NCBI RefSeq assembly: GCF_030464345.1
Contig: NZ_VCYH01000002.1
Coordinates: 124,001 to 188,000, forward strand
DNA length: 64,000 bases
DNA from: Methanoculleus frigidifontis
GTDB lineage: Archaea; Halobacteriota; Methanomicrobia; Methanomicrobiales; Methanoculleaceae
Reading direction: 5' to 3'
Shown: piece by piece, positions 13,064 through 52,075 of the stretch
Position numbering within the stretch: position 1 is the first letter of the stretch
How the letters are laid out: the number at the start of each line of letters is the position of its first letter
Notes under the pieces: generated by a model
Database searches by the model: none
Told to the model about the DNA's origin: nothing
The model's input: only the letters and a program-made list of their open reading frames with translations
Made by a program: the position numbers and the translations under genes

Positions 13064-13734
13064 TCACCACCCTCATCCTCGACTTCGACGGCGTCGTCGC
13101 CGAGTCCATCGCCATGAAGGCGGAGGCCTTCCGGGAGACCTTCTCGTTCATCCCCGAACACCAGGACGAGATCGTCGCCTACCACCTCGAAAACGGCGGC
13201 ATGTCACGCTACGACAAGTTCCGTCACATCTACGAGAATATCCTGCACGAGGACCTCACGCCCGAGCAGGAGAAGCGGCTCGCCGACCGCTACGCCGGGC
13301 AGATCTTTGAGAAGATGCTCACGATCCCCTTCGTCCCCGGAGCGGAGGAACTCCTCCGGGAGTGCTCGCGCCTGCTCCCGCTCTACATCGTTTCCGCAAC
13401 CCCGCAAGGCGAGATGCGGGAGATCACCCGCCACCGCAACCTCGATCAGTACTTCGTCCGGGTCTACGGCTCGCCGAAGACGAAGGCCGAATGCGTCCGG
13501 GAGATCCTGGCAGAGACGGGCTCATCCCCGACAGAGACCCTCTTCGTCGGCGACGCCCCGCAGGACTGGCAGGCGGCGCGGGAGACCGGCGTCCGGTTCG
13601 TTGCCCGGGTCAAACCGGGCGACCCCGATCGCTTCTCCGGGAGGCCCGGGGTCGAGGCGGTCGTGGGTAACCTTCATGAACTCCAATCCTACATACGGGA
13701 CGAACTATGCTCATCCCGATCTCGTACCCCCTGA
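13060..13734 (+). CDS. HAD-superfamily phosphatase (phosphoglycolate/beta-phosphoglucomutase-like)
   Basis: A 224-residue haloacid dehalogenase-fold hydrolase. Motif I is LDFDGVVAES with the nucleophile D8 and acid/base D10. Motif II is YIVSATPQ, motif III a lysine near SPKTKAEC, and motif IV is FVGDAPQDWQAA. The helical cap follows motif I, as in subclass I. The start is GTG 13060, overlapping the previous stop and preceded by GAGGAGGGG. The gene overlaps the next one by 28 bp. In this cluster it probably dephosphorylates a sugar phosphate or acts as a sugar phosphomutase; the substrate is not determined. Confidence 0.85.
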   Translation: MITTLILDFDGVVAESIAMKAEAFRETFSFIPEHQDEIVAYHLENGGMSRYDKFRHIYENILHEDLTPEQEKRLADRYAGQIFEKMLTIPFVPGAEELLRECSRLLPLYIVSATPQGEMREITRHRNLDQYFVRVYGSPKTKAECVREILAETGSSPTETLFVGDAPQDWQAARETGVRFVARVKPGDPDRFSGRPGVEAVVGNLHELQSYIRDELCSSRSRTP

Positions 13735-14381
13735 ACCGACAGGCGCCGCTCTATCCCGGATCGCCTCCTATCACCATCCGGGAGCAGACCTCAATCGCGG
13801 ACGGCGATCCGGAGACGACCAGCATCATCACCCTCTCCAGCCACGCAGGGACGCATATCGACCTCCCGAAACACGTCTGCACAGGCGGCGGATCGGTCGC
13901 CGACCTCCTCGCACCCGAGCCGGTCTTCGCGCCCGCGTACTGCATCGACGTTCCGACAGAGGGAGCGGTGCCGCTCCGTGCGGCGGACCTCGCACCGCAC
14001 CTCCCGGCGGTCCGGGACGGAAAAGCGCTCTTTGTCAGGACCGGCGCCTCCAGTCTCCGCGACATCAATCCGGACGTCTACGCATCGGCGCACCCCTGGG
14101 TGCACCCGGACGTCCCCGCCCTCCTCCGCACCGAATGCCCGGACCTCCACGTCTTCGGGATCGACACCATCTCGATCGCATCACCCGCCCATCCGGAGGA
14201 GAGCCGTGCCACCCATGCCGGCTTCCTCTGCACCACGCCGCGCATCTTCGTCATGGAGGACGTCGATCTCTCGTACGGGAGGCTCATCGATGAAGCGTGG
14301 ATCCTCCGCCTCTACCCGGTGCTCTTCGACGACATCGAGGGGGTGCCGGTGGTGGCGCTTGCCGAGATACCGGGGGCGTAA
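13707..14381 (+). CDS. Cyclase-family metal hydrolase (kynurenine formamidase-like)
   Basis: A 224-residue protein with the cyclase-family metal motif HxGTHxDxPxH (H46, H50, D52, H56 in SSHAGTHIDLPKH) and the conserved later histidine and glutamate region (SRATHAGFLCTTP). Relatives hydrolyse N-formylkynurenine or act on other cyclic or formylated substrates. No kynurenine or tryptophan-catabolic genes are nearby, so the role is open. The start lies within the 3' end of the HAD gene, suggesting co-translation with it as the last gene of the glycan operon. Confidence 0.82.
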   Translation: MLIPISYPLNRQAPLYPGSPPITIREQTSIADGDPETTSIITLSSHAGTHIDLPKHVCTGGGSVADLLAPEPVFAPAYCIDVPTEGAVPLRAADLAPHLPAVRDGKALFVRTGASSLRDINPDVYASAHPWVHPDVPALLRTECPDLHVFGIDTISIASPAHPEESRATHAGFLCTTPRIFVMEDVDLSYGRLIDEAWILRLYPVLFDDIEGVPVVALAEIPGA

Positions 14382-14665
14382 CAGAAGGATCTGCTCTAAA
14401 CTCGTCTGCAGGATGCAAAGTCGGTTTCCCCGGGTTCCGGTCTTCTGTGGAACTATCCGGGTCAGGGGGACCGTGACGGCTATCGCACCGGGGGAGGGGT
14501 GTCAGGGGAGGGGGCTGGCCCCATATGCGCTACCGTACCCTATGGGTGCACCGAAATTCCTGGTGCTATCGGCGGGATCCAGGCACTTGATGAGGTCCCA
14601 TCTCTTGCTCCGGATGACCGCGATCGGGGTATTCGGGGGCACGGTTTTCCCCCTGGGTATCGCCA

Positions 14666-14792
14666 TGACTGCCCCCGCCCCTTGAGGGGCGGGGGAGGAG
14701 GCCGGAGGCCGGGTGGGGTGGGGTTGATGCTGTCTGGGGATCTTCGCGGGAGACAGGGGAAGGGAAAACCCCTCCCCGTCGGCCCCACCCCG
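14666..14792 (+). repeat. Dispersed 127-bp GC-rich repeat, copy A
   Basis: Read by eye, this stretch matches the reverse complement of 50439-50565 over the same length with about 113 of 127 identical positions and no gaps. The middle block from about 14686 is nearly invariant, including GGAGGCCGGAGGCCGGG. It begins with a perfect hairpin (CCCCCGCCCC, loop TTGA, GGGGCGGGGG) and ends with a second G/C-rich hairpin around an A-rich loop. It sits outside genes. Confidence 0.85.
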
Positions 14793-14882
14793 GGGGGCGC
14801 TTAGCCGCCACGGTTCACAGCACGGGGAGACGCCCGGGACAAGCCCGGTCCGGCACCAGCCTCGTCAGGGGAAGAACGCGGT

Positions 14883-14918
14883 ATACGCTTGAACCTCCTT
14901 AGCTAAGGGTTAGCGTAT
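14883..14918. other. Nested palindrome
   Basis: ATACGCT and AGCGTAT form 7-bp outer arms around a 12-bp perfect palindrome CCTTAGCTAAGG at 14897-14908. It lies about 75 bp beyond the stop of top6A and could be a processing or termination hairpin, or a regulator site. Confidence 0.4.
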
Positions 14919-14993: not shown

Positions 14994-16082
14994 TTAAATA
15001 ATCCCCATCTCTGATAGGCGGGTCGGCAGGTACTCCTTCGTCACGAAATCAAGCCCGCGGCTCGCAAAGGCCTGCTGTTCAGACTTCAGCTTCATCTCGA
15101 GCTGCAGGTTGATCTGCTCGCGCCAGTAGTCGGTCGCAAACCGGGGATCGGTCAGCTCCGATTTCAGCGCAGCCACGTCCTGCTCGGTGAGCTTGTCGGA
15201 GGGAAGGTTGTAGTCGGTGATGTCGCTTGGCTGCACCCCGACGAACTGTGCCTGCGGCGTGGCAAGGCGCTCGGACATATGGGCACTCTTGATCGAACCG
15301 TAGGCGACGCTGGCATATATCCGGTACGACCAGGGGTCACCGTCGGTGAAGACCACGACCGGCAGGTCCATCGTTTCATTGAGCCGCCGGAGCACCCGGC
15401 GGGTGGACCGGGCAGGCTGTCCCTTGAGGTTCACCAGGATAGCCCCATACTCCTCGTCGAACCCGTTCTCCATAAGACGGGCGTACATACCGCCGGTCTC
15501 GATCGCGATGACGAACTTCGCGTCGTGATCGATGAAGTCGAGGGTATCCACGTTATTCGGGATGGGATACCCAGCCTCGCCGACATCCTCCTGGCAGTGA
15601 ATCTCACGGACACCGCGCTGAGTAGACTCACGGAGTTTCAGGGGCCCGAAGATCGCCGCTCCGTCCTCCTCGGGGCGGAGGTGGAAGGCCTCCCGCTGCA
15701 GGTCGGTGAGGATCTCGAGATCCTCGATGAGCCGGTTGCTCTCGTCCTGCGCCCCGAACTTCGCCCGCTTCCAGCCTTCCGAGATGTAATAGAGTTCTCT
15801 CAGTGTCGAGGAGCGGCCTTCGGCGAGCTGCTGCTTTAAAAATCCGATGACGTATGCCATCTTCAGGAGATGGACGGCGCTCTTCTCGGAGGTCGCCGCC
15901 CGCGTGCTCTCCCGCTCGCCATAGGTCCAGACCTCGCTTTCGTCGTTGTACTCGATATTCTGCTTCGTCCGCGTCGGCAGCCGGATGAAGGGCACGAGGC
16001 CGTCACGCATCTGGTCGTACCAGCCGCGTGCTATCGTCACCAGCTGCTCCCTGGCACGCAGATCCATCTCTTCCCTAGACAT
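14994..16082 (-). CDS. top6A: DNA topoisomerase VI subunit A
   Basis: A 362-residue Spo11/Top6A protein that cleaves both DNA strands as the catalytic subunit of the type IIB topoisomerase. The winged-helix CAP domain carries the tyrosine pair Y98/Y99 in [11 protein letters not shown], one of which forms the covalent DNA bond. The Toprim domain shows [14 protein letters not shown] and the metal-binding DGDPWSY. Length is normal for archaea. Its ATG at 16082 overlaps the end of top6B by 8 bp, so the two subunits are made from one transcript. Confidence 0.97.
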
Positions 16083-48871: not shown

Positions 48872-50263
48872 CTATCTCCTTCCGAATACTTCGGCGGGGA
48901 TATATTCAACAAGATCGGTTGCGGCCATCCCGTTGCCCCGCCCCCCGGCAGCACGCATCCCGGCGCGCCCGTTACCGTACGCGGCAACCGCAGCCGCCTC
49001 GAAGGCCGGGAGGTGGCAGAAGAGTGCTCCGGCGAGGCCGGCGAGGACGTCGCCCGTCCCCCCGACGGTCATCGCAGGGGTACCGGTCCGGTTGAACCGC
49101 ACCCGCGTACCGTCCGAGATGATATCGACGGGGCTCTTGAGCAGGATGGTGCCGTCCCGGGCGGCCGACCGCACCGAGCGGGCACGGGCGGCGAGATCGT
49201 CCGGAAGCACATGCCCCGTCATCCGGGCAAACTCACCGGCGTGCGGCGTAGAGATCGTCTCCCGCGCCACCGGCAGCGGGTGCCGGAGGGCGTCGGCGTC
49301 GAAGACCGCCCGTCGCGCATTTTCCGCGATCGCCTGCACGACCGCATGGCTCTCTGTCCCGAGCCCCATCCCGCAGACGACGACGTCCGCCCGGTCGACG
49401 AGCCGGAGGATCGTCTCGAGGTGCTCCTCCGCAAGGTGGGTGCCGGCGAGAGGCTCGTAGATGAGGTCCGGCATCGGGATGGAGGCGGTCGAGGCGACCC
49501 TGACGAGATCGGCCCCGCCGCGGAGCGCTCCAAGGGCGGCGAGGTAGGGTGCCCCCTGGTAGGGACCGCCGCCGACGACCAGCACCTCGCCCCCCGCACC
49601 CTTATGTGCCGACGAGGCACGGCCGGGGACGAGGGTCAGGTCGCCGGGGCCGGTGAAGCACTCCGCCTCGAGCGGGATGCCGATATCCACGGCCTCGGCC
49701 GCATCCTGTTTCGGGCGGTGGAACGCGACGATCCGCGTCGCCCGGATGCCGGGGGTCGGGACGTCGGCGGCGACGACCGGCACGGCTGCCTCGTTCGCGA
49801 GGTCGGCGCAGGCGGCGAGCGGTTCGCGGAGGCTGCCCGAACCGCCGGTGCCGAGGATCGCATCGACGATGACGTCCGCGACCTCAAAGAGCCGGCGCAG
49901 CGCCAGCACGTCGGAGGTGCACCGGACCGGATGGAGGTGGACGGCGCTATGGGAGAGGAGCTGCAACTGGGCGGCGGTCTCCGGCGTCTTCCCCTCCGGA
50001 CCCGGATAGACGACGTGCACCTCGCCGTCGTGCTGCAGGTAGCGGGCGGCCACCATCCCGTCACCGCCGTTGTTGCCCTTCCCGCAGAGAATAAGAACAT
50101 TCTCCGGCCGGTATCCTCGCACAACCTCCGCAAGCGCCCGTCCGGCACTCTCCATCATCTGGAGCGACGAGAGGCCGAGCGCCATCGCGTTCTCCTCGAT
50201 CACCCGCATCCCGGCCGCATCGACCGTCCCCGCTCCGCAGAACTCACGCAGTTCGTCCGGCAT
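48872..50263 (-). CDS. nnr: Bifunctional NAD(P)H-hydrate epimerase/dehydratase
   Basis: A 463-residue fusion repairing damaged NAD(P)H. The N-terminal YjeF_N epimerase (roughly 1-205) has NVLILCGKGNNGGDGMVAARYL. The C-terminal ADP-dependent dehydratase of the ribokinase-like fold has HKGAGGEVLVVGGG, a GMGLGTE site, and GTPAMTVGGTGDVLAGLAGAL. The start may be ATG 50263 or the adjacent GTG 50266. It lies one base before moaC. Confidence 0.94.
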   Translation of the reverse strand: MPDELREFCGAGTVDAAGMRVIEENAMALGLSSLQMMESAGRALAEVVRGYRPENVLILCGKGNNGGDGMVAARYLQHDGEVHVVYPGPEGKTPETAAQLQLLSHSAVHLHPVRCTSDVLALRRLFEVADVIVDAILGTGGSGSLREPLAACADLANEAAVPVVAADVPTPGIRATRIVAFHRPKQDAAEAVDIGIPLEAECFTGPGDLTLVPGRASSAHKGAGGEVLVVGGGPYQGAPYLAALGALRGGADLVRVASTASIPMPDLIYEPLAGTHLAEEHLETILRLVDRADVVVCGMGLGTESHAVVQAIAENARRAVFDADALRHPLPVARETISTPHAGEFARMTGHVLPDDLAARARSVRSAARDGTILLKSPVDIISDGTRVRFNRTGTPAMTVGGTGDVLAGLAGALFCHLPAFEAAAVAAYGNGRAGMRAAGGRGNGMAATDLVEYIPAEVFGRR

Positions 50264-50266
50264 CAC

Positions 50267-50677
50267 GCCTCATCACCCTCCGGCGTCTCATCAGAGGTGC
50301 TGTTGATCGTCATGCAATAGATACCTTGTGAAGCCGGGCGGACGCTCCGGATTGGGCCACAGAAAGGCCTCCTCCCACGTGCTCGTTTCCCGGCATGGGA
50401 CGTCTCCCGATCCGGGGAACCGAGGCAACAATCGCAAGCGGGGTGGGGCGGGAGGGGAGGGGTTTTTCCCTCCCCTGTCTCCCGCGAAGATCCACAGACA
50501 TCATCAACCCCACCCCACCCGGCCTCCGGCCTCCTCCCCCGCCCCCAGGGGCGGGAGGGCAGTCACGCAAACGGATATCGGCAGGAAGGAGCCGGAAGAA
50601 CAGCGTCCGGCCCGTCCCCCCCCCGTTTTCCGGCGACGCCACCCTTTATTGAGCTACGGCACCCATAGTACAGAGCA
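50267..50677. other. Intergenic region with structured repeat
   Basis: 411 bp between the divergent nnr and DHH genes. It contains the inverted copy of the 127-bp repeat and, near 50643-50651, a TATA-like CTTTATTGA about 31 bp before ATG 50678. No other gene is supported. Confidence 0.6.
50439..50565 (-). repeat. Dispersed 127-bp GC-rich repeat, copy B
   Basis: On the minus strand this stretch matches 14666-14792 over equal length. Both hairpins persist although their arms differ in sequence: CCCGCCC/GGGCGGG in the first, and AGGGGAGGG/CCCTCCCCT around an A-rich loop in the second. Four G-tracts (GGGTGGGGTGGGG, then GGAT... in this copy) lie between them. Confidence 0.85.
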
Positions 50678-52075
50678 ATGGGACTCGGCGACGATATCAG
50701 GAGGGGGCTTTCGGCCATACGCGACGCGGACGAGGTGACGGTGATCTCCCACATCGACGCCGACGGCATCAGCACCGAATCGATCCTGGCGCAGGCGATC
50801 GCACGGGAAGGCATACCGGTAACATCGGTCTTCGTCCGGCAGCTCGAACCGATGGCGATGCGGCATGTCCCAAAAGACGCGTCGCTCAAGGTCTTCACCG
50901 ATCTCGGCGCCGGTCAGCAGAGCCTCCTCGAGGAGCACGGTCTCTCCGCCGAGGAAGTACTGATCGTCGACCACCACGTCGCCCAGCCCTGCGAGACCGA
51001 GTACCAACAGGTCAACTGCCTCGACCACGGCTACACCAAGATGAGCGCCGCGGGCGTCGCCTACCTGATGGCAAAAGAACTCGACCCGGGCAACATCGAT
51101 CTCGCAAAACTCGCGGTCGTCGGGAACGTCGGCGACATGATGGCCCGGGAGACCTGCGGCCTCGTCGGCCCGGCACGCGAGATCGTCGAGGACGGCGTCG
51201 CCGCGGGCAACGTCCTCGTCCGGAAGCGCGACCTGAACTGCTACGGCACCTCGACGCGGCCGATCCACGTCTGCCTCGGCTACAGCGACGACCCCTACAT
51301 CGCCGGGATCAGCAACAACACCAGCGCCGCCCTCCGGTTCCTGCAGAAACTCAAAGTCCAGTTAAAGACCGGCGACGGGCGCTGGCTCGTCTGGGAGGAG
51401 CTCAGCCACGAAGAGAAGCGGACGATCATCAGCGCACTGACCCAGCAGCTCATCGCGAGCGGGAAAGAGACGGACCGCCTCCTCGGCGAGGTCTACCTCT
51501 TCCCGGACGAACCGGCGCGGACGCCGCTGCGGAACGCCTCGGAGTACGCCACCCTGCTGAACGCCTGCGGCCGCTGGGCGAAGCCGCGGATCGGCGCCGG
51601 CGTCTGCCGGGGCGACCGCGGGCCCGCCTACCGCGACGCCGAGTACATGCTCAGCCACCACCGGGCGATCATCCGCGAGCTCCTTCAGTATATTCTGGAC
51701 GCCGGGGTGACGGAGCTCTCAAACCTCCAGTACACCCATACCGGCGAGAAGTTCCCGGACACGATCGTGGGGATCGGGGCGGGCATGGCGCTCTCCAAAC
51801 TCAACTGGCGCAAACCGATCCTGATCATGAGCGCCGTCATCGACGATGCCGAGATCACCAAAGTCTCGGTGCGGACGAACGAGTGGGCGATCGCCCGGGG
51901 CGTCGACCTGCAGGACGCGATGATGAAGGCGTCCGAGGCGGTCGGGGGTGCCGGCGGCGGGCACAAGATCGCGGCGGGTGCGTTCATCCCGAAAGAGAAA
52001 GAAGAGGAGTTTGTCAACCGTGTCAACAGAATACTCAAAGAACAGTCTGCTCTCCAGGATCCGGACGATAGCTGA
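50678..52075 (+). CDS. RecJ-like DHH-family phosphoesterase
   Basis: A 465-residue protein of the archaeal RecJ/GAN-like group. The DHH domain has ISHIDADGIST (H25, D27, D29), FTDLGAGQ and IVDHHVA. The DHHA1 end has GGAGGGHKIAAGAFIP. Archaeal relatives are single-strand exonucleases that act with the replication (CMG) machinery, although some are nucleotide phosphatases. The N-terminal 20 residues are helical. Confidence 0.88.
   Translation: MGLGDDIRRGLSAIRDADEVTVISHIDADGISTESILAQAIAREGIPVTSVFVRQLEPMAMRHVPKDASLKVFTDLGAGQQSLLEEHGLSAEEVLIVDHHVAQPCETEYQQVNCLDHGYTKMSAAGVAYLMAKELDPGNIDLAKLAVVGNVGDMMARETCGLVGPAREIVEDGVAAGNVLVRKRDLNCYGTSTRPIHVCLGYSDDPYIAGISNNTSAALRFLQKLKVQLKTGDGRWLVWEELSHEEKRTIISALTQQLIASGKETDRLLGEVYLFPDEPARTPLRNASEYATLLNACGRWAKPRIGAGVCRGDRGPAYRDAEYMLSHHRAIIRELLQYILDAGVTELSNLQYTHTGEKFPDTIVGIGAGMALSKLNWRKPILIMSAVIDDAEITKVSVRTNEWAIARGVDLQDAMMKASEAVGGAGGGHKIAAGAFIPKEKEEEFVNRVNRILKEQSALQDPDDS

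Follow-up and report, generated by a model that had tools for sequence, protein, structure and literature searches.

Short folded repeats of Methanoculleaceae: a MITE-like palindromic family with apparent exchange of cores at fixed sites

The repeat described here is real and is most plausibly interpreted as a MITE-like family of palindromes in which cassettes turn over in an unusual way. It has two copies in the window, which is the whole analysed stretch of 64,000 nucleotides of Methanoculleus frigidifontis DNA, and it forms a large family of short folded intergenic repeats in nearly all methanogens of the Methanoculleus group that is apparently unnamed. At fixed sites the arms persist as species diverge while another core, in one orientation or the other, takes the place of the old one, which suggests a cassette that is mobile or copied.

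Results

The two copies in the window

A sequence-only reading had proposed a 127-bp intergenic repeat in inverted orientation, and both copies are indeed present at 14666-14792 (+) and 50439-50565 (-). In a search of the own genome copy 2 matches copy 1 with 91% identity over query positions 7-133 (E=1.9e-44), and a longer BLAST match joins 14666-14835 to 50565-50398 at 84%. The repeat thus stands but its proposed length does not, as the unit found by our covariance model is larger, about 146 bp.

The flanking ORFs bear out the intergenic placement. Copy 1 lies in a convergent gap between ORFs at 13707-14381 (+) and 14994-16082 (-). Its whole core, at 14658-14802 (+), matches model positions 1-146 with 106.8 bits and runs from TATCGCC to a decayed right end, GGCGctta. 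By sequence and arm consensus, it is preceded by a left arm of the A form, CACGGTTTTCCCCCTGGG, at 14640-14657 (+), and followed by a right arm of the B form, GCCGCCACGGTTCACAGCACGGGG, at 14804-14827 (+). Copy 2 is an isolated core with decayed ends at 50429-50573 (-), also matching model positions 1-146 (93.6 bits), in a divergent gap between ORFs at 48872-50266 (-) and 50678-52075 (+). It lies upstream of the ORF at 50678, and the gene downstream of it is presumably DHH-family phosphoesterase-like.

The flanks of the copies had been described as completely different. They are unlike each other, but those of copy 1 recur elsewhere in the genome, in a composite repeat of 439 bp (14477-14915, +) with matches at many own-genome loci. 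The left part of the composite, at 14481-14534, resembles a partial reverse copy of the right half of the element (TATCGCACCGGGGGAGGGG...), so the composite may consist of several elements.

The orthologous sites in G001, a genome of the same genus, hold no copy of the element. The aligned gene blocks lie 11 bp apart at the first site, compared with about 615 bp in the own genome, and 40 bp apart at the second, compared with about 309 bp. Taken alone, this comparison of two genomes is compatible with either a gain here or a clean loss there. We also observed that G001:C4 1-4800 matches several successive stretches of the own contig, G000:C2, at about 98000-108300, as is seen with repeated paralogous genes.

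Anatomy of the repeat unit

The consensus anatomy was derived from an alignment of 56 cores. The unit is a core of about 146 bp, TA-TCGCC(A)...GGCGA-TA, which usually lies between two arms of about 25-30 bp. The arms are of two kinds, A (CACGGMTTTCSA..) and B (..CACGGTCCAC), each of which occurs on both sides. The core itself is a series of G+C-rich hairpins, in which TATCGCC(A) is followed by P2 with the consensus CCCCCGCCCC/GGGGCGGGGG, P3 with the consensus AGGAG-GCC-GGA-GGC-CGGG, P4 with the consensus GGGYGGGGTGGGG/CCCCWCCCC, which encloses a variable stretch of about 25 nt and the hairpin P5, and finally GGCGATA. The two ends are inverted with respect to each other and read TATCGCC in 102 of 117 cases and GGCGATA in 76 of 117; with only 7-8 bp, these terminal inverted repeats are short for a MITE of the IS630/Tc1-mariner type.

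In copy 1 the fold and the alignment fold place P2 at 14672-14695 (+; CCCCCGCCCC TTGA GGGGCGGGGG). P3 lies at 14700-14710 (+; GGCC GGA GGCC) by the alignment fold, with compensatory variants counted in other copies, and P4 spans 14712-14792 (+) with the stem GGGTGGGGTGGGG / CCCCACCCC around the variable stretch and P5, as seen in the folds and the alignment. The structure check that the sequence-only reading had proposed finds a conserved hairpin layout with the P3 pairing kept through changes. Two-sided changes occur in 3 of the 35 pairs predicted by the alignment fold, two of them in P3, the covariation being thin because the stems hardly vary. Fold z-scores range from -2.5 to -3.7 on both strands.

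In some species the cores contain small double hairpins, which are missing at the same site in others (L067/L227, L053/L228). Such hairpins are far more frequent than in reversed sequence (23 vs 0 and 42 vs 0). They appear as a second family of the forms CGAC-stem-loop-stem-GGAG and TGAG-stem-loop-stem-CGA, in which the stems vary freely and are always complementary. These small hairpins are inserted both in the element and in other gaps (L227, L228, L221, L230 and many named Methanoculleus loci), and at a given site they are present or absent between species.

Size and taxonomic distribution of the family

The own genome has about 40 copies, counted as places at E<1e-19. The family also extends to relatives, with matches in 36 of the 40 Methanoculleaceae genomes searched and dozens of copies in most genomes of the Methanoculleus group; among these 40, none was found in G001 or in two further genera. 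A structure model search over the 159 genomes of the order finds the element in 35, with just two single weak hits outside the family. These two (G075, E 4e-6, and G119, E 1.9e-8) belong to another family of the order. Two single-contig genomes have 52 and 61 hits, some of them in direct tandem about 200-280 bp apart. An exact 23-base pattern retrieves at least 100 stretches in species genomes, with titles naming Methanoculleus, Methanomicrobiales or Euryarchaeota, and gives no match in IMG/VR viral contigs. The absence of a named family also held up, as Rfam 15 gave no match above the gathering score (the best reached 20 bits, and all were far below and taken as chance matches). In the open-access literature that we searched, no description of the repeat was found.

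Gaps that hold an element are predominantly convergent, with 50 convergent, 38 tandem and 5 divergent cases (n=93), compared with 26, 126 and 77 for gaps without one (p=1e-16), as counted with a home-made gene finder on named contigs picked because they contain elements. Element orientation is even between tandem genes (15/15). This bias to gene ends fits tolerance of the element there, and does not by itself show a function.

Empty arms and absent copies

A pattern search found five arm pairs that have no core. Three of them (G027, G028 and G032) read arm-TA-arm, while occupied sites read arm-TA-TCGCC...GGCGA-TA-arm, with a TA on both sides of the core. The single TA suggests what would be predicted from TA duplication, or from a precise loss that leaves one TA behind; the observation comprises three clean empty arm pairs, and none of them lines up with an occupied orthologue at the level of single bases. 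When the empty pair of G027 is aligned with occupied relatives, it lies in the same gap at a different base. At ten tested sites, no query made of the joined flanks matched across an empty junction in another species, which makes gains look rare. In the alignments that we drew, the gaps at empty sites are short.

Turnover of cores at shared sites

We took pairs of loci in which both flanks match and sorted them by core orientation and by variable stretch, with the cut between kept and replaced set at 80% after inspection of the data. Because the pairs share ancestry, the counts are descriptive and carry no p-value. None of the 13 pairs with flanks at least 94% identical is inverted, and 11 are kept. 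Among the 121 pairs below 94%, 63 are inverted (57 with another subtype) and 58 have the same orientation (41 with another subtype). Both orientations are found at 14 of the 24 sites represented by two or more loci. The similarity of the variable stretch is 0.62 in inverted pairs and 0.60 in random pairs. The bases beside the core ends in inverted pairs also match at about the random level, which argues that the exchange runs to the core ends. Pairs in the same orientation retain the right end in a somewhat larger share of cases (0.35 vs 0.14, n=23), which leaves room for some partial exchange.

Simple inversion in place was rejected as the main process, since the majority of inverted cores are of a different subtype; a few pairs, for example L261/L301, could be true inversions. 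The cleanest case of an inverted core is L105 vs L112, where the flank match continues through the arm to TATCGCC and an inverted match covers the core, although the two contigs share one metagenome bin, and duplication or mis-binning of the region may lie behind it. The gene-anchored site beside the DHH gene holds the element in forward orientation in 5 cases and in reverse in 9, own genome included, with 16 lacking it. At another shared site (L091:6500-7150 vs L126:4150-4800) outer inverted repeats (AAAGCCCGAAAACGGCTT / AAGCCGTTTTCGGGCTTT) enclose an inverted segment that is larger than the core.

Search for a partner enzyme

A match to known transposon ends was looked for, and the ends of the transposase loci examined do not match the element. 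In particular, no DDE_3 locus among them is flanked by TATCGCCA...TGGCGATA, and DDE_3 is absent from most carriers. An IS630 partner was dropped for want of a locus with matching ends. Y1_Tnp is found in 7 of the 40 family genomes and was not found in the own genome; G036 has the most Y1 matches (18), yet a single element match. The earlier view of a mobile or maintained element is supported by the own-genome copy number, the family-wide spread, the empty G001 sites, the lack of a strong Rfam match and these unmatched transposase ends.

Discussion

Like a MITE, the element is short, non-coding and present in many copies between genes; an autonomous relative with the same ends, as expected for an IS630/Tc1-mariner MITE, was not found among the DDE_3 loci. 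The explanation that we prefer, and to which we would give about an even chance, is a non-autonomous palindrome that exchanges its core at the TA-flanked ends. An enzyme acting in trans would cut at these ends, and cores would in this way be copied or carried from one site to another. As the core ends are reverse complements, an incoming core could take either orientation. Selection would leave copies mainly where promoters are missed. Break repair at the extruded hairpin is a serious rival, which we regard as possible rather than probable. It supposes that transposition is rare or absent today. The palindrome would be broken by a nuclease that acts on hairpins or when replication stalls, and it would be repaired by gene conversion with another copy as donor. 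Copies at new sites would then be old, and since the two ends of the break are inverted arms that are nearly identical, the incoming core could again take either orientation. Sites that are old and shared across species while their cores differ, identical variable stretches at non-orthologous sites and the fact that no enzyme was found all speak for this rival. But replacement mostly reaches the core ends and seldom stops inside, the homology of the inverted arms is just about 10 bp, and neither the first spread nor the single-TA arms would be explained. Transposition in trans is kept as the preferred reading. Tentatively, and with some doubt, the fixed arms might also be seen as a landing site, into which cores from other copies are repeatedly swapped in either orientation, via palindrome breakage or some enzyme, so that cores compete for a fixed set of sites.

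The strong hairpins on both strands, the strong bias to convergent gaps and the P3 pairing conserved through changes raise the question whether the host maintains the element under selection, as a two-way transcription terminator or a 3'-end stabiliser at gene ends. We consider this unlikely, as the element is missing from G001 and other relatives and, at a well-conserved gene pair, from half the species, and its orientation between tandem genes is even. Moreover, the removal of promoter insertions predicts the same bias, and template switching can keep hairpins perfect. Mobilisation of a REP/BIME-type repeat by a RAYT (Y1) transposase could account for the tandem arrays, the nesting of double hairpins and the G+C-rich hairpins that follow GGAG. 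The distribution of Y1, which is absent from most carriers and abundant in a genome with one element, disfavours this reading, and a unit of 146 bp that forms several hairpins is unlike a hairpin of 20-40 nt with a GTAG or CGTC tag, so that we hold the reading to be very improbable.

With more than 30 related carrier genomes and many shared sites, the gain, exchange and reversal of palindromes can be followed in nature, and transposition can be told apart from break repair. Biogas plants commonly contain these methanogens, in which hairpins this dense at gene ends may influence where transcripts end.

Several known repeats resemble the element. The ERIC or IRU elements of enterobacteria, 127 bp long with TA at the insertion point, are likewise short palindromic intergenic non-coding repeats with tens of copies. 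They are bacterial, and we claim no sequence relation; we know of no arm-and-core exchange in them. The Correia elements of Neisseria and RUP of pneumococcus are MITE-like, about 100-150 bp long, duplicate TA and are probably mobilised in trans by enzymes of the IS630 type. Our element is similar in kind and size, with TA on both sides of its core, but they have longer inverted ends and a plausible partner enzyme, for which we found no counterpart. Reviews cover MITEs, REPs and related repeats (PMC10969869, PMC3733652, PMC4666352, PMC6006769), and archaeal MITE-like repeats have been little studied (PMC10969869). REP, BIME and REPIN sequences are G+C-rich intergenic hairpins in mosaic and nested arrangements (PMC3733652, PMC3116915), which our element shares, whereas its unit is much longer, with no GTAG/CGTC tag family and no RAYT in most carriers. 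The folded sites and the apparent exchange of cassettes may also call to mind integron attC arrays, which are marked by attC core sites and a tyrosine recombinase nearby. The intrastrand-triplex repeats of E. coli, TMECO (PMC4666352), consist of a 37-nt motif that lacks inverted ends and arms and does not exchange cassettes; they are like our element in being intergenic, in having no strand bias and in the order of C-run, G-run and G-run, a likeness of sequence order alone.
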